A stretch of DNA of 64,000 nucleotides from Pseudomonadota bacterium (GTDB lineage Bacteria > Pseudomonadota > Alphaproteobacteria > Rhodobacterales > Rhodobacteraceae), in the NCBI GenBank assembly GCA_020161655.1, contig JAIUPC010000008.1:179385-243384 (forward strand), written 5' to 3'. How positions within the stretch are numbered: position 1 is the first letter of the stretch; every line of letters begins with the position of its first letter. The notes beneath the pieces were generated by a model. It was not told the DNA's origin. It did no database searches and saw only the letters and a list, made by a program, of their open reading frames with translations. The position numbers and the translations under genes are program-made. Below are positions 20,805 through 62,365 of the stretch, piece after piece.

Positions 20805-22358
20805 TCAGCGGACATAGATGTTGTAGGCCTTGCGGAGCGCGCGGTCGATCTCGGGGTCGATCAGGTTGCCGGCCTTGGCGAGGATCTCGTTCTTCCGGGC
20901 GATGGCGGTGTCAAGGAGCAGCGGCTTTCCGGCCTCGTTCCATTCCTTCGGGCTCATCCGGTTGCCGACGGCGGGGTAGATGTATTCCGTCTGCATCAGG
21001 CTCAGCGTCTGGTCCGAGCCGAGGTAGTGGCCCGGCCCGCCAAGGCAGACCTCCTTCATCGCCTCGATCGAGGTCGAATCCGGCGTCACGTCGATCCCGC
21101 GCACCAACCGCATCGCTTGACCGAGAAGATCGTCGCCAAGGATCAGGCTTTCCATGCAGAACCCGAGAAGCGAGGCATGCATGCCGACCGCCTCATAGCA
21201 CATGTTGAGGCCGGCAAGCCCGGCGAGGGCGTTGGTGATCCCCTGCTCCCAGCCGGCCTGCATGTCCGGCAGCTTGCTGTCGGAAATGCCCGAGGCCGCG
21301 CCGCCGGGGAGGTCGTAGAAGCGGTGCATCTGCGCGCAACCCGCCGTCAAGAGCGCCTGTTCCGCAGAGCCGCCCGACATGGCGCCGGTCCTGAGGTCGC
21401 TGACAAATGGCCAGGTGCCGAAGATCGCCGGGGCGCCCTTCCTGATCGCGTTCACATAGACGACGCCGGCAAGGCATTCGGCCACCGCCTGCACGATGGT
21501 GAGCGCGATGGGCGCGGGCGCCGTCGCCCCGGCCTGCCCGGCGCTCAGCAGCAGCATCGGCATGCCACGGCGGATGCAATCCTCCATGGTGATGCAGCTT
21601 TCCTCGGCGAATTTCATCGGCGGCACGACGAAGCAGTTGGAGTTCGAGACGAAGGGCCGCTCCAGCCATTTCTCCTCGCCGCCCGCGATGGTGTAGAGCA
21701 TGTCGAAGCAGTCGGCGACATGGGAGGGGTCGCTGAACGAGGTGCCGATGTGCTTCCGCGTGCCGGCAATGCAGGCGTAAAGCGTGTTGAGGTCCATCTC
21801 CTTGTTGTCGACCACGTCACGGGCAACCATCGTGCGCTGGTAGAAATGGATATTGTCGAGATTGTCGACGAGCCGCGCCGCGTCATAAAGATCCTGCGCG
21901 GTGGATTCGCGGTAGTCGAGCGTTATGGGATCGACGATATGCACCGCCGCGCCCGCCGTGCCGTAATGGACCTTGGTGCCGGATAGGTGCAGGTCGTGCT
22001 TCGGGTCGCGGGCATGAAGCGTGATGTTGCGCGCAGCGACCGCCAGCATGTCCTCGACCAGCGCGCGGGGAAAGCGGATGCGCCCGTCGTCGCCCTGAAT
22101 GGCACCGGCGCCGGTCAGGATTTCCACCCCCGATTGCGGCGCCTGGCTGAGGCCGATCACCTCAAGCGCCTCAAGGGCTGACGCATGGATCGTCTGTACA
22201 TCGGCCTCGGTCAGGGGCTTGTACTGGCCGCCCGACATGCCTGCGCGCACCGGGCGCAGGTTCTCGGCCAGAGGGGCCGCCCGCGCCGCCCGCCGCGCCT
22301 CACGCCCGCCGGCGCGTGCCGCCCGCCTCGGTTCACAATTCAGCGCTTCGTCAGACAT
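20805..22358 (-). CDS. Trimethylamine methyltransferase (MttB) superfamily protein, without pyrrolysine
   Basis: This is a 517-residue member of the MttB superfamily (COG5598-type). Archaeal MttB moves a methyl group from trimethylamine to a corrinoid protein using pyrrolysine; this one is read through without an internal TAG. It therefore belongs to the non-pyrrolysine branch that includes glycine betaine methyltransferases. Recognisable parts are EALEVIGLSQAPQSGVEIL near the N-terminus and NALAGLAGLNMCYEAVGMHA in the barrel. No corrinoid protein or reactivase is seen in the window. Its start overlaps the end of the PEP-mutase-like gene by eight bases, and two DMGDH-like genes lie upstream, which points to stepwise demethylation. 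Confidence 0.87.
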   Translation of the reverse strand: MSDEALNCEPRRAARAGGREARRAARAAPLAENLRPVRAGMSGGQYKPLTEADVQTIHASALEALEVIGLSQAPQSGVEILTGAGAIQGDDGRIRFPRALVEDMLAVAARNITLHARDPKHDLHLSGTKVHYGTAGAAVHIVDPITLDYRESTAQDLYDAARLVDNLDNIHFYQRTMVARDVVDNKEMDLNTLYACIAGTRKHIGTSFSDPSHVADCFDMLYTIAGGEEKWLERPFVSNSNCFVVPPMKFAEESCITMEDCIRRGMPMLLLSAGQAGATAPAPIALTIVQAVAECLAGVVYVNAIRKGAPAIFGTWPFVSDLRTGAMSGGSAEQALLTAGCAQMHRFYDLPGGAASGISDSKLPDMQAGWEQGITNALAGLAGLNMCYEAVGMHASLLGFCMESLILGDDLLGQAMRLVRGIDVTPDSTSIEAMKEVCLGGPGHYLGSDQTLSLMQTEYIYPAVGNRMSPKEWNEAGKPLLLDTAIARKNEILAKAGNLIDPEIDRALRKAYNIYVR

Positions 22359-56660: not shown

Positions 56661-59189
56661 TTATGCCAGCTTGCGCTCGACTTCCTCGCGTTCGAAAATC
56701 TCGATCACGTCGCCGGGGCGAATGTCGTCGTAGTTCTCGAAGGCCATGCCGCATTCCTGGCCGGACTGCACTTCCTTGACTTCGTCCTTGAATCTCTTGA
56801 GGGTTTTCAGCGTCCCCTCGTGGATCACGACGTTGTCGCGCAGGAGGCGAACGCCGGCCGAACGGCGGGCGACACCTTCCGTGACAAGGCAGCCAGCGAC
56901 CTTGCCGACGTTGGAGACCTTGAAGACTTCCTTGATCTCGGCATAGCCGATGAAGGTCTCGCGGATCTCGGCCGACAGGAGGCCCGAGGCCGCCTTCTTC
57001 ACGTCATCGACGAGGTCGTAGATCACCGAATAGTAACGGATCTCGACGCCCTTCTGGTTGGCGGCGGCACGTGCCGGCGCATTGGCGCGGACGTTGAAAC
57101 CGATGACCGGAGAGCCGCTGGCCTCGGCCAGGCCGATGTCCGATTCGGTGATCGCACCGACGCCGTAATGGAGCACGCGGACACGAACTTCGTCGTTTCC
57201 GATTTTTTCCATTGCCTGAACAATCGCCTCGGCGGAACCCTGGACGTCAGCCTTCACCACGATGGGCAGTTCCGACACGCTCTTGTCAGCCTTGGCCTTG
57301 GCCATGAGCTGTTCGAGCGTCGTCGCGGCACCGGCGGCGGCGCGCTTGTCCTTCGCGGCCTGTTCGCGGTAGGCGGCGATCTCGCGCGCCTGCGCTTCGG
57401 TCTCGACCACGTTCAGCACGTCACCGGCTTCGGGTGTGCCGTTCAGGCCCAGAACTTCGACCGGAACCGAGGGGCCGACTTCGTCCACCCGCTCGCCCTT
57501 GTCGTTCACCAGTGCCCGAACCTTGCCCCACTGCTCGCCGACAACGAAGATGTCGCCTTTGCGCAGGGTGCCGTTCTGAACCAGAACGGTGGCGACCGGA
57601 CCACGGCCCACATCGAGCTTGGCCTCGATCACGGCGCCAAGCGCGGCCCGTTCCGGGTTGGCCTTGAGTTCAAGTATCTCGGCCTGCAGCGCGATCGCTT
57701 CCAGAAGGCTGTCGAGGCCCTTCCCGGTCGTGGCGGAAACCTCCACGTCCTGCACTTCGCCCGACATCGCTTCGACCACGACCTCGTGCTGAAGGAGATC
57801 GGTCCGCACCTTCTGCGGATTGGCCGCAGGCTTGTCGATCTTGTTGATGGCGACGATCATCGGCACCTTGGCGGCCTTGGCGTGGTTGATCGCCTCCACC
57901 GTCTGCGGCATGACCGCGTCATCGGCGGCGACAACCAACACCACAATGTCCGTCACCTGCGCGCCACGGGCACGCATGGAGGTGAAGGCGGCGTGGCCGG
58001 GCGTGTCGAGGAAGGTCAGGACCGCGCCCGATTCCGTCGTCACCTGATAGGCGCCGATGTGCTGGGTGATGCCGCCGGCTTCGCCGGACACCACGTTGGT
58101 CTTGCGGATCGCATCCAGAAGCGAGGTCTTGCCGTGGTCGACGTGGCCCATGATCGTGACGATGGGCGGCCGCGAACGAAGGTTTTCGGCGGTGTCCTCG
58201 ACCGAGTCGATGGCCTGTTCCACATCGGCATCCGTCACGCGGACGGCGTGATGGCCGAATTCCTCGATGATGAGTTCCGCGGTATCGGCGTCGATGGCCT
58301 GATTCATGCTGACCATCATGCCCATCTTCATGAGCGCCTTGACCACGTCGGCGGCCCGTTCGGCCATCCGGTTGGCAAGTTCCGACACCACGATGGTTTC
58401 CGGCAGCTGCACGTCGCGCACCTGCTTTTCGGCCTTGTGGCCCATGCCCATCGCCTTCTGGCGGGCCTTGTCCTGCTTGCGCTTCATCGCGGCGAGCGAG
58501 CGCTGGCGACCACCCTCGTCGAGCGCCTCGTTCAGCGTCAGCTTGCCGGCGCGGCGGTTGTCGTCGCGCGTCGTGCGGCTGTTGCGGTTGTCGCGGTCGG
58601 GGCCGCGATCATCACGCTCACGGTCGGTCTTGCGCGGGCCGCCAACCGGAACGCCCTTGGTTTCGGCGCGGGCAGCAGCGGCCTGAGCCGCAGCCTGATC
58701 GACGGGTGCTGCCGGCTTGGCATCGACCTTCTTCAGTTCTTCCTTGCGGGCGGCGCGAGTCTCGGCCTCTTCGGCGCGACGGGCCTCTTCCTCGGCCTTG
58801 AGCCTCAGGGCCTCTTCGCGCTCGCGATCCTCGCGTTCCTTGGCTTCGACCTCGGCGCGGCGACGTTCGCGTTCCTCTTCGCGGGCACGCTCTTCGGCGG
58901 CGCGACGCTCGGCGTCTTCCACCTCGCGCGCTTTTGCGGCCTGAAGCGCCCTCAGCCGGCGTTCCATCTCGGCATCGGTGATGCCGGCAGGGCGGCGCGA
59001 CGGATCGCCAAGGTTCGGCGAACCACCCGGACCGGCAGGCGCCACACCCGGCTTCGCCGGCACGACGACGCGCTTGCGCTTCGTCTCGACGACGACGCTT
59101 TTCGTCCGGCCGTGGCTGAAGCTCTGCTTCACCTGACCGGAACGCCCGCCACCGAGGCCGAGAGGTTTTTTGCCGTCTGTATCGCTCAT
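56661..59189 (-). CDS. infB: Translation initiation factor IF-2
   Basis: This 842-residue GTPase places initiator tRNA on the ribosome. A long charged N-terminal part (about residues 70-165, Arg/Glu/Ala-rich helix) precedes the IF-2 N-domain and the G domain with [14 protein letters not shown] (about 345-358), DTPGHAAF and NKIDKP. Domains II-IV follow, with the C-terminal tRNA-binding part ending [14 protein letters not shown]. It is last in the rimP-nusA-ylxR-infB operon and followed by a shared terminator. Confidence 0.98.
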
Positions 59190-59194
59190 GCCGA

Positions 59195-59815
59195 TTACAA
59201 TTCCTTTTCGGCGGACGTTCCGCCGTCTTTCCGTCTGAGGCCCGTAAGCTTCGCCGCTTCCTCTACAACACGTCTGGAGAGTCCACCAGCGGCAAGCGCG
59301 CCATGTATCACACTATCCCGGCCAAACGCCAGCCCAAGCTCGGAGGCCGTCAGGCAACCGAACCAGCGGCCCCCTTCCGGGGTCCAGAGCTTGCCTTTTC
59401 CGCGTTCGGAACCGTCCGAGGCCTGCAAGAGAACCTTCGCCTTGCCATCGGCAAGCCAGCCCTTGACCTTCTCGAACCCGGCGACGGCATAGCCCGCCTT
59501 CCGCGCCAGCGAGATGTACTCGACCACGCGCTTCGCCTGTCCGCGTTCAACCTGCTCGCTCAGATCGGCCGATGCCTGAACCGGCTTCTTGGCGGCGCGG
59601 GAGAAAAGGCCCTTCTTCACCGCCTTGTCGATCAGGTCACGGTCAGCCGTAACCCAGATGCCGCGGCCAGGAAGCTTGCCGGCCAGATCGGGAAAAACCT
59701 GCCCCTCGGGGGAGACGACAAAGCGGACAAGCCCCGCCTTCGGCTGCACATCGCCCGTGACGATGCAGCGCCGTTCGGGATCATCCCCTGTCGTGTCCTG
59801 TCCCCCTCGGGTCAT
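59195..59815 (-). CDS. ylxR: YlxR (DUF448)-L7Ae-like RNA-binding protein
   Basis: This 206-residue protein has an N-terminal YlxR domain (about 12-90, [19 protein letters not shown] and [10 protein letters not shown]). A C-terminal L7Ae/YlxQ-like domain (about 95-190, [20 protein letters not shown]) binds structured RNA. The fusion is common in alphaproteobacteria, replacing separate ylxR and ylxQ genes. It lies between nusA and infB, five bases from the latter, and likely acts in transcription-translation control. Confidence 0.9.
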
Positions 59816-59838: not shown

Positions 59839-61443
59839 TCAGGCCTCGGCCTCCTCGTCGGCTTCTTCGTCCCCGGCCTCAAGTTCGGCCGGATCGACCC
59901 AGCCAAGCTGGATGCGGGCGGTCATGACCATATGCTGGGCTTCCTCGAGGCTCACCTCGAACTTCTCAAGGATGCCCTCGTCCTTCACACGCTCGCCGTT
60001 CACGGTGGTCCAGCCGCCGGCGATCTCCCAGTCGGCCAGAGTCGCGAAGTCTTCCAGCGTCTTCACGTCGTCCTTGGCAAGCGCCTCGATCATCTGCGGG
60101 GTCAACCCCTCGAAGCCGACGAGGCTGTCCTCAACGCCAAGGGCGCGGGCGTTTTCCAGAGCCTTGCGGTTCTGTTCCTCGATCACGTCGCGGGCGCGGG
60201 CCTGCAGCTCGGCGGCGGTGGATTCGTCCACGCCCTCGATCGACAGAAGTTCGTCGAGATCAACGTAGGCCACTTCCTCAAGGTTGGTGAAGCCTTCGGA
60301 CACCAGCAGCTGGGCGAAGAATTCGTCAAGGTCCAGCGCTTCCATGAAGAGCTTGGTACGCTCGGCGAACTCGGCCTGACGGCGCTTGCTTTCTTCTTCC
60401 TCGGTGAGGATGTCGATGTCGAGGCCGGTGAGCTGCGAGGCAAGCCGCACGTTCTGGCCGCGACGGCCGATGGCGAGCGAAAGCTGCTCGTCCGGGACCA
60501 CGACCTCGATCTTGCCGGCCTCCTCGTCGATGACGACCTTTGACACCTCGGCGGGCTGCAGCGCGTTCACGAGGAACGTCGCCTGATCCTCATTCCACGG
60601 AATGATGTCGATCTTTTCGCCCTGAAGCTCGTTCACCACGGCCTGAACGCGGCTGCCGCGCATACCGACGCAGGCGCCCACCGGGTCGATGGAGCTGTCA
60701 TAGGAGATGACGCCGATCTTGGCGCGCGAACCCGGATCACGGGCCACGGCCTTGATCTCGATGATGCCGTCATAGATCTCCGGCACTTCCATCTTGAACA
60801 GCTCGGCCATGAACTGCGGATCGGTGCGCGAAAGGAACACCTGCGGGCCACGCGCCTCGCGCCGGACATCCTTGATGTAGCTGCGGATGCGGTCGTTCGG
60901 GCGGTAGCTTTCGCGGCCGATCTTCTCGTTCCGGCGTAGGATCGCTTCGCCCCGGCCGATGTCGACGATGATGTTGCCGTATTCCTCGCGCTTGACCACG
61001 CCGTTGATGATCGTGCCCTTGCGGTCCTTGAATTCCTCGAACTGGCGGTCACGCTCGGCTTCGCGGACCTTCTGCAGGATCACCTGCTTGGCCGATTGCG
61101 CGGCGATACGGCCGAGATCGACCGGCGGCACTTCGTCGATGATCTCGGCGCCGACCGCGGGGTCCTTAATGTACTGCTTGGCCTGCGCGACGGTTAGTTG
61201 CGCCTGGTAATTCTCTACCGCGTCATCCTCGACCACGGTGCGGACGCGGGTGAAGGTGGCGCGACCGGTCTTGCGGTCGATGGCAACGCGGATGTCCATC
61301 TCGGCGCCGTAGCGCGACTTCGCGGCACGGGCGAGGCTTTCCTCCATCGCCTGCACCACAAGCTCCGGGTCGATCATCTTCTCGCGCGCGACCGCCTCGG
61401 CGGTCTGGAGAAGCTCAAGCTGGTTGGCAGAGGTAATCGCCAT
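59839..61443 (-). CDS. nusA: Transcription termination/antitermination factor NusA
   Basis: This 534-residue NusA binds RNA polymerase and nascent RNA to modulate pausing, termination and antitermination. It has an N-terminal polymerase-binding domain (to about 125), an S1 domain (about 130-200, [21 protein letters not shown]) and two KH domains (about 230-345, including [15 protein letters not shown]). Two C-terminal helix-hairpin-helix repeats follow, ending in an acidic tail. The ATG directly follows the rimP stop with no gap. The operon leader contains an attenuator that NusA could influence. Confidence 0.97.
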
Positions 61444-62013
61444 TCATTCCTCCTCGGAAGTCTCTTCTTCAATTGCATCGAATGCGGCCTCGTCCACCGC
61501 GCCGGTGGCCTTCTTCTGCCGCAGCATTTCCGCGATCAGCTCATCGGTCAGGATCAGCTTCGCATCGGCAAGCCAGTCGAACTTCAGCCCGATGGTGCCT
61601 TCCTCGATCTCGATCAGGACCTCATCGCCCTCGGTCCCCGCGATCAGGCCCTTGAAGCGCTTGCGCCCGTCGATCAGTTCCGACGTCTCGATCCGCGCCT
61701 CGTAACCCTTCCAGGCATCGAAATCCTTCAGCCGCGTCAGCGGCCGGTCGATGCCGGGCGAGGATACCTCAAGATGATAGGCCTCCTCGATCGGGTCTTC
61801 CACGTCGAGCACCGCCGAAACGGCGACCGAGATCTTGCCGCAATCCTCGACGTCGATCCCGCCCTCGGGCCGGTCCGCCATGATCTGCAGGGTCTTGGTG
61901 TTGCCGCCCATCAGCCGGATGCGCACAAGCTCGTACCCCAGACCTTCGATGGTCGGGGTCACGATCTCGGCCAGGCGGCGGTCGATGGCGGCTTTCGCGA
62001 TGAGTTCGGTCAA
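61444..62013 (-). CDS. rimP: Ribosome maturation factor RimP (probable TTG start)
   Basis: This 189-residue factor helps 30S subunit maturation. Family motifs are [20 protein letters not shown], the [16 protein letters not shown] segment and the C-terminal Sm-like domain. No ATG lies near the family N-terminus; the only good candidate is TTG at 62013 (read [12 protein letters not shown]). An upstream ATG at 62187 would have to translate through the leader terminator and lies beyond the promoter, so I reject it. It is first gene of the nusA operon; a rare start codon may keep expression low. Confidence 0.92.
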
Positions 62014-62031
62014 TTCCCAAGTCCAGACAAC

Positions 62032-62096
62032 AAAAAACGGGCGCTGCGGCCCGTCGATCTTTCCCGGTGGGCTGCGAGTTTGGACCCCGCAGCGCC
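62032..62096 (-). promoter_or_regulatory. rimP-nusA leader attenuator (antiterminator/terminator switch)
   Basis: In the transcript, ACGGGC and GCCCGT (62054-62049 and 62042-62037) form a hairpin followed by a run of U, an intrinsic terminator ending about 20 bases before the rimP start. Upstream, GGCGCUGCGG (62096-62087) pairs perfectly over ten bases with CCGCAGCGCC (62049-62040), which is the loop plus 3' arm of the terminator, so the two structures exclude each other. A third segment, CGCAGC (about 62077-62072), can pair with the same upstream strand and would release the terminator. Confidence 0.75.
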
Positions 62097-62108
62097 GCTG
62101 TTGAGGTG

Positions 62109-62137
62109 CATATAGGGTAACGCCCCCGAGTCTGCAA
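62109..62137 (-). promoter_or_regulatory. Promoter of the rimP-nusA-ylxR-infB operon
   Basis: On the minus strand TTGCAG (62137-62132) and TATATG (62114-62109) are 17 bases apart, a good sigma-70 match. Transcription would start near 62102 and give an about 90-base leader containing the attenuator. Confidence 0.7.
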
Positions 62138-62220
62138 GGAAGGAATGCAACGCTGGACCGGATGACGCGGCCATCATAGTCTTGCATTCGCGGGTCGCCG
62201 AGTCTAAATGGCGCCCGAGT

Positions 62221-62297
62221 GCCGCCTTAGCTCAGCTGGTTAGAGCACCAGATTGTGGATCTGGGGGTCTCCCGTTCGAACCGGGAAGGCGGTACCA
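62221..62297 (+). tRNA. tRNA-His (anticodon GTG), CCA encoded, A73 and no G-1
   Basis: The cloverleaf is complete: acceptor GCCGCCT/AGGCGGT, D stem GCTC/GAGC, anticodon stem CCAGA/TCTGG around TTGTGGA, T stem TCCCG/CGGGA. The discriminator is A (62294) rather than C, and the base before position 1 is T, so the extra G-1:C73 pair that marks most tRNA-His is missing. This is a known feature of many alphaproteobacteria. CCA is encoded at 62295-62297. Confidence 0.96.
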
Positions 62298-62365
62298 CTC
62301 TCTCATCGCCTGAGAAATTGCCGAACCAGCTTCGCTGCTGCCGCTAACAGCCCTTTCGCGACGGC

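Follow-up and report, generated by a model that had tools for sequence, protein, structure and literature searches.

A putative transcription attenuator with a conserved 5'-end antiterminator pairing upstream of rimP-nusA-ylxR-infB in Rhodobacteraceae

How might transcription into an operon encoding NusA and IF-2 be controlled from its own leader? rimP was ranked first among genes with a predicted attenuator in 2010 (Naville and Gautheret; PMC2965389), and in the part of that account cited here the switching mechanism was not settled, since the general form of the leader showed no antiterminator. We analyzed a 64,000-nucleotide stretch of a Rhodobacteraceae genome (the window, to which all positions refer) in which an earlier note had described a complete attenuator in front of rimP-nusA-ylxR-infB. 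The predicted terminator, antiterminator and sequestering hairpin are all present, and the operon genes have NCBIfam matches (Table 1). The leader is very probably a genuine attenuator, and it is likely that attenuation with an antiterminator at the RNA 5' end controls this operon. A bacterial family that combines a comparatively supported antiterminator with genetically tractable members makes the question of NusA feedback directly testable.

Operon, promoter and terminator

The leader is flanked upstream by a divergent gabT-like gene on the other strand, and the nearest named RimP records come from Rhodobacteraceae, Defluviimonas among them. Between the end of the U-tract (62032) and the TTG start of rimP lie 18 nt. 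At 62018-62007 the window reads GGGAATTGACCG, while the near-identical record L032 (positions 48-58; RimP 99% identical) reads GGGAATGACCG with an ATG; the start is TTG here because the window has one T more, which is either a real difference or a sequencing error.

Table 1. Features of the leader and the operon in the window
Feature	Position	Strand	Remarks
Leader attenuator region (putative)	62137-62032	minus	promoter, ~71 nt leader and intrinsic terminator; directly 5' of rimP-nusA-ylxR-infB
-35 element	62132..62137	minus	TTGCAG; TTG kept in 77/77 parsed relatives
-10 element	62109..62114	minus	TATATG, G at -7; 17-nt spacer to -35
Predicted transcription start	62102	minus	A of AACAG; placed by spacing
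5' antiterminator strand (predicted)	62094..62098	minus	conserved core GCGGC, within AACAGCGGC; pairs 62050-62046
Ten-base antiterminator strand (predicted)	62087..62096	minus	GGCGCTGCGG; pairs CCGCAGCGCC, 62049-62040, perfect
Central hairpin	62071..62093	minus	8 bp, 62093-62086 / 62078-62071; heptaloop GUCCAAA; changes on both sides in 7/8 pairs
ACCGG segment	62064..62068	minus	ACCGG or ACCGA in 87/92 leaders
Intrinsic terminator stem-loop	62037..62054	minus	ACGGGC-CGCAGC-GCCCGT; arms 62054-62049 / 62042-62037
U-tract	62032..62037	minus	six U, the first shared with the stem as its final base
rimP	61444..62013	minus	TTG start; NCBIfam match for RimP
nusA	59839..61443	minus	NCBIfam TIGR01953
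ylxR-type RNA-binding protein gene, RnpM-like	59195..59815	minus	NF006622 above cut-off; NF047356 below cut-off
infB (IF-2)	56661..59189	minus	NCBIfam TIGR00487
tRNA-His gene	62221-62297	plus	divergent, upstream of leader

For comparison, 80 named loci of relatives were fetched via RimP, and more by DNA and model searches. Automatic processing passed 114 of 130 loci, 113 of them with a rimP-like start downstream by a loose pattern, and the other 16 were oriented by hand. Parsing of 109 of 112 loci (L032, which is too short, L069 and L083 were left out) yielded 92 distinct leaders.

A generic sigma-70 scan of the leader region found no promoter. The comparison nevertheless bears out the promoter claimed earlier: among the 79 named relatives examined, 77 could be parsed (all except L105 and L110), and in all 77 the spacer is exactly 17 nt, with 16-19 nt allowed. 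The -35 element begins with TTGC in 73 of them, and the base at -7 is C in 41, G in 34, A in two and never T. The AACAG start follows the -10 hexamer at a distance of 6 nt in 57 relatives, 7 nt in 18 and 5 nt in two. As judged from these sequences, the leader promoter fits a published alphaproteobacterial type, described in the cited part of that work as having A, C or G at -7 and as possibly activated by CarD (PMC8407463).

The terminator, too, stands as claimed. It is the only terminator-like site in the 601 bp scanned (shuffled sequences average 0.4), a GGGC..GCCC hairpin followed by six U. Across 100 aligned leaders of the family the stem is near-invariant apart from a basal A-U/G-C pair, and its 5' arm CGGGCC is the same in every row.

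Attenuators of the trp type use mutually exclusive terminator and antiterminator helices. The present leader resembles them in its alternative helices and differs from them in that none of ATG, GTG and TTG occurs in the 71 nt from the predicted +1 to the last U of the terminator, and therefore there is no leader peptide. Among the 92 distinct leaders ATG is found in 15, GTG in 32 and TTG in 18, none being a fixed feature, and a peptide-coding attenuator was rejected. Minimum folding energy was likewise rejected as evidence for the element. Since it is not unusual by itself (z of -0.81 for 123 nt and -1.59 for the 71-nt leader), the case for an attenuator rests on the comparison of leaders.

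Alternative helices within the leader

The central hairpin overlaps the ten-base strand and can sequester it, as the earlier note had suggested for a third segment of the leader. We evaluated it together with the terminator in a model-based alignment of 100 leaders, 99 of which come from genomes other than that of the window. Covariation was 0.287 versus 0.122 in shuffled alignments (0 of 500), 94.0% versus 84.6% of the cells could pair (0 of 500), and eight pairs versus 6.1 were changed on both sides (35 of 500); these values are favoured because the alignment was fitted to the same structure. When the partners were slid, the joint covariation dropped to at most 0.059. The heptaloop GUCCAAA is common, not universal. 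For the ACCGG segment, folding predicts pairing with CGG of the 5' strand, or a weak helix with its neighbours beside the antiterminator; the segment is too invariant for a covariation test, so these pairings are folding predictions.

The second conserved pairing involves the RNA 5' end. Its first nine or so nucleotides, AACAGCGGC, can form 4-7 bp with the terminator, on its inner 5' arm and loop, and this helix is compatible with an intact central hairpin. In 220 of 222 leaders (L269 and L055 were left out; some species are doubled under two sources), 204 have at least five contiguous pairs with G-U allowed. These leaders comprise 93 distinct combinations of 5' end and loop, of which 91 allow four or more such pairs (the exceptions are L221 and L282), 78 five or more and 32 six or more. 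With shuffled loops, at least five pairs occurred in 27.7 +/- 4.1 combinations, with a maximum of 40 in 300 rounds. Pairing of each strand with its own loop reached 14.62 versus 13.63 +/- 0.18 when loops were permuted (0 of 20,000), and in the 27 combinations whose strand lacks AGCGG the values were 12.8 versus 10.6 +/- 0.44 (0 of 20,000), in both cases by a permutation that ignores ancestry. Control segments of 12 nt gave no signal either upstream of +1 (44 combinations with letters; 2084 of 5000) or in the linker (93 combinations; 2203 of 5000). A control with reversed strands, applied in an earlier form of the test, also beat its permutations (0 of 5000), and shared base composition therefore contributes to the pairing signal.

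Individual replacements agree with these numbers. AGAGG/CCTCT takes the place of AGCGG/CCGCT in six of 79 rows, AGAGG occurring only with CCTCT and vice versa. On a RimP/NusA tree of these 79 rows each motif requires three changes by parsimony, and two independent pairs of changes fall on well-supported branches, too few for significance (p 0.5). L222 carries another combination, ACGGC/GCCGT. In the 25 combinations whose loop departs from the CCGC type, the own strand pairs slightly better than the consensus strand (12.4 versus 11.8), a gain to which no significance is attached. When folding was done without the outer 3' arm, 81 of the 92 distinct leaders had the 5' strand paired with the terminator segment over 4 bp or more; in the other 11, which form one clade of the RimP/NusA tree and include the co-change case L059, the folded antiterminator helix has fewer than four pairs.

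Column by column, the antiterminator covaries weakly (0.058 versus 0.055 shuffled, 36 of 500), with two pairs changed on both sides (68 of 500 shuffles as high). Most positions of the helix are invariant, and in other clades the register is shifted; since its columns hardly vary, the support for the antiterminator stands at the level of the whole helix, where the 5' end and the terminator loop appear to change together. Covariation in relatives, the absence of which the earlier note had named as one refutation of its proposal, is thus strong for the central hairpin, seen as co-change of whole helices for the 5' end and the loop, and weak for single columns of the antiterminator; the proposal withstands this check. 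Taken together, the compared leaders point to the terminator and the 5'-end antiterminator as conserved, mutually exclusive alternative helices, as expected of a switching attenuator.

The perfect ten-base helix in which the earlier note had seen the antiterminator is real in this strain, its length being reached in seven of 20,000 shuffles of the first 24 nt, and fails as the general form, being present in one of the 92 distinct leaders, that of this strain. The longest Watson-Crick run in the others is four in nine leaders, five in 46, six in 30 and seven in six. Even in the close relative L003, whose leader is otherwise alike, the loop differs and the ten-base helix is missing. On these sequences we regard it as a strain-specific extension of the shorter conserved antiterminator.

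Distribution and relation to known rimP leaders

A covariance model of the leader (R1), built from 42 leaders (alignment A2), matched 283 of 295 genomes of the family (E up to 0.01). Weak matches are among them, and individual inspection covered the fetched loci. In the genome of the window it has one strong place (E 1.6e-27), the next having E 0.007. Among 144 genomes of the class 22 gave any match: three belong to the family (E 4e-13 or better), and the others have E 1e-5 or worse. Eighteen of the 19 matches outside the family lie away from rimP. The remaining one, in G113 (L331:106-168), is that genome's own rimP leader, a weak match of 27.9 bits with the terminator GGGTGGGCCGCAGGGCCCGCC.

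The terminator is distributed more widely. Of 87 rimP loci scanned in other families 73 gave a terminator, and 55 of these terminators hold GTGGGC; AACAGCGGC was found upstream in none and ACAGCGG in one (L328). A search for a 5'-end antiterminator in 65 of the other-family leaders gave no significant excess of complementarity (10.91 versus 10.49 +/- 0.26 permuted, 660 of 10,000; control segment, 5583 of 10,000). Single leaders from other alphaproteobacterial families (L328, L319, L338, L114 and L117) have 5' ends and loops complementary over 7-9 pairs, G-U included, in differing sequences. Judging by these sequences, a like design may exist elsewhere and may have evolved independently in a few lineages (L328, L319, L338 and L114/L117), although such complementarity is not a trait of the class as a whole.

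As far as the cited part of the 2010 account goes, the "rimP-leader" is a terminator, GGGc(...)gCCC with a U-stretch, 4-130 nt from the gene start, with no visible antiterminator in its general form (a gammaproteobacterial tandem variant excepted) and no larger conserved element (PMC2965389). The leader described here shares with it the operon, the position, the GGGC-CGCAGC-GCCC hairpin with U-tract (the GGGC arm being present in 100 of 100 family rows) and the short gap to the gene, which is about 11-46 nt in named relatives. It differs from that description in the 5'-end antiterminator and the covariant central hairpin predicted throughout the Rhodobacteraceae, and we set it apart as a variant because of the conserved 5'-end pairing. 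The terminator is the known part; what appears to be new, from comparison of leaders, is a lineage-specific antiterminator. Literature searches, which covered few subscription journals, brought up no description of an antiterminator for rimP leaders of Alphaproteobacteria.

With the Rfam family RF01770 (rimP) the leader shares the name and the operon. Membership, raised in the earlier note together with this search, is not borne out: in the genome of the window RF01770 did not match the leader, its best place lying elsewhere (E 0.375), and it exceeded its cut-off in none of the 21 genomes of the relatives search, the window's own included, and in one of 14 control genomes. No match to the leader was obtained with Rfam on 61950-62300 at E up to 10, and six further loci likewise gave none (E up to 0.1). 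Elsewhere in the window, on the minus strand, Rfam matched the Ruegeria Cis2 small RNA family RF02645 (44281-44432, 68.2 bits) and the pyrrolysine insertion sequence mttB, PYLIS_3 (21188-21287, 44.4 bits versus a cut-off of 38); the latter is perhaps a mere similarity of an mttB-like gene.

Candidate mechanism and alternative explanations

Folding of the growing chain suggests an order of events. At 40-48 nt the minimum-energy folds contain the central hairpin and the CGG of the 5' strand paired with CCG of ACCGG; at 56-62 nt the five-base antiterminator core is predicted beside the intact central hairpin with a probability of 0.7-1.0. Transcription would start near 62102 and the central hairpin would fold first. 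As transcription exposes the terminator's loop and the inner 5' arm before it, GCGGC at the RNA 5' end would pair with GCCGC; in the resulting junction the inner 5' arm would be occupied, giving antitermination. If instead the 3' arm GCCCGT wins, the terminator would form and a leader RNA of about 71 nt would be released. In this strain the ten-base extension would shift the isolated leader towards read-through: with the 3' arm out, the folding probabilities in the 71-nt leader are 0.11 for the terminator versus 0.72 for the ten-base helix. When 118 nt reaching into rimP are folded, the terminator dominates (P 0.99).

In 81 of the 92 distinct leaders the minimum-energy fold is the terminator. 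Compared with the best structure that forms when the outer 3' arm is withheld, its advantage in stability across the 92 has a median of ~6 kcal/mol. As the terminator is the more stable structure in most relatives, kinetics, and probably a factor acting in trans, would decide on read-through. In these folding models the antiterminator is an early, weaker state, which would suit regulation by a factor able to hasten or delay folding of the terminator hairpin. The obvious candidate is NusA, since its gene follows, since in B. subtilis NusA is reported to enhance termination in the leader of its own gene (Mondal et al. 2016, summarised in the cited part of PMC12288461), and since NusA feedback has been proposed for Streptococcus agalactiae, where a short rimP leader RNA was seen (PMC4448216, cited part). 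The E. coli rimP 5' UTR is named in a test of Rho (PMC7815308, cited part). In B. subtilis, as presumably in the present locus, a leader terminator controls transcription into the NusA gene within a feedback logic; NusA dependence is reported in that summary and is proposed here by analogy. NusA would then promote use of the terminator in front of its own operon and thereby limit its own synthesis by negative feedback, a step to which, as an analogy, we give an even chance.

The stability of the terminator would also fit a constant, partly efficient terminator with no regulation, which fixes the expression level of the operon and does not switch. For such a device a conserved competing pairing would be needless, as would a promoter spacing that places the start at the pairing strand, and we consider it improbable. 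Regulation might instead run through the terminator motif alone, NusA or another factor acting directly on the invariant GGGC..GCCC hairpin, as proposed in the cited part of the 2010 account (PMC2965389), and the 5' end being kept for initiation or protein binding and not for pairing. The invariance of the CGGGCC arm, the similar terminators across the class with the near absence of the 5' motifs upstream of them, the lack of an antiterminator in the general form as described in 2010 and the weak column-wise covariation all accord with it. It leaves unexplained why otherwise variable loops stay complementary to the 5' end (0 of 20,000 permutations) and change along with it in separate lineages, and it seems to us rather unlikely. 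It is very unlikely in our estimate that the chief product is the terminated leader itself, working in trans as a small RNA. Termination would set free 71 nt of RNA carrying two stable hairpins and a U-tail, and a leader-derived small RNA, UpsM, has been reported in Rhodobacter (PMC5089854, cited part), but the leader has no Rfam match, and such a role would in any case be compatible with attenuation.

We thus retain attenuation with a 5'-end antiterminator and tentatively extend it, in a reading that we think somewhat more apt to fail than to hold, to a switch of the whole family: the first nine nucleotides of the Rhodobacteraceae leader would act as an antiterminator racing the 3' arm of the terminator, the outcome being set by the speed of NusA-driven hairpin folding, and the same design might have arisen separately in a few other alphaproteobacterial lineages. 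If this is true, the cell meters core elongation and initiation factors by a folding speed that one of them controls.

In a longer transcript the GCGGC of the 5' strand could also pair with a GCCGC in the start of rimP (61988-61992), a complementarity that is possibly due to chance.
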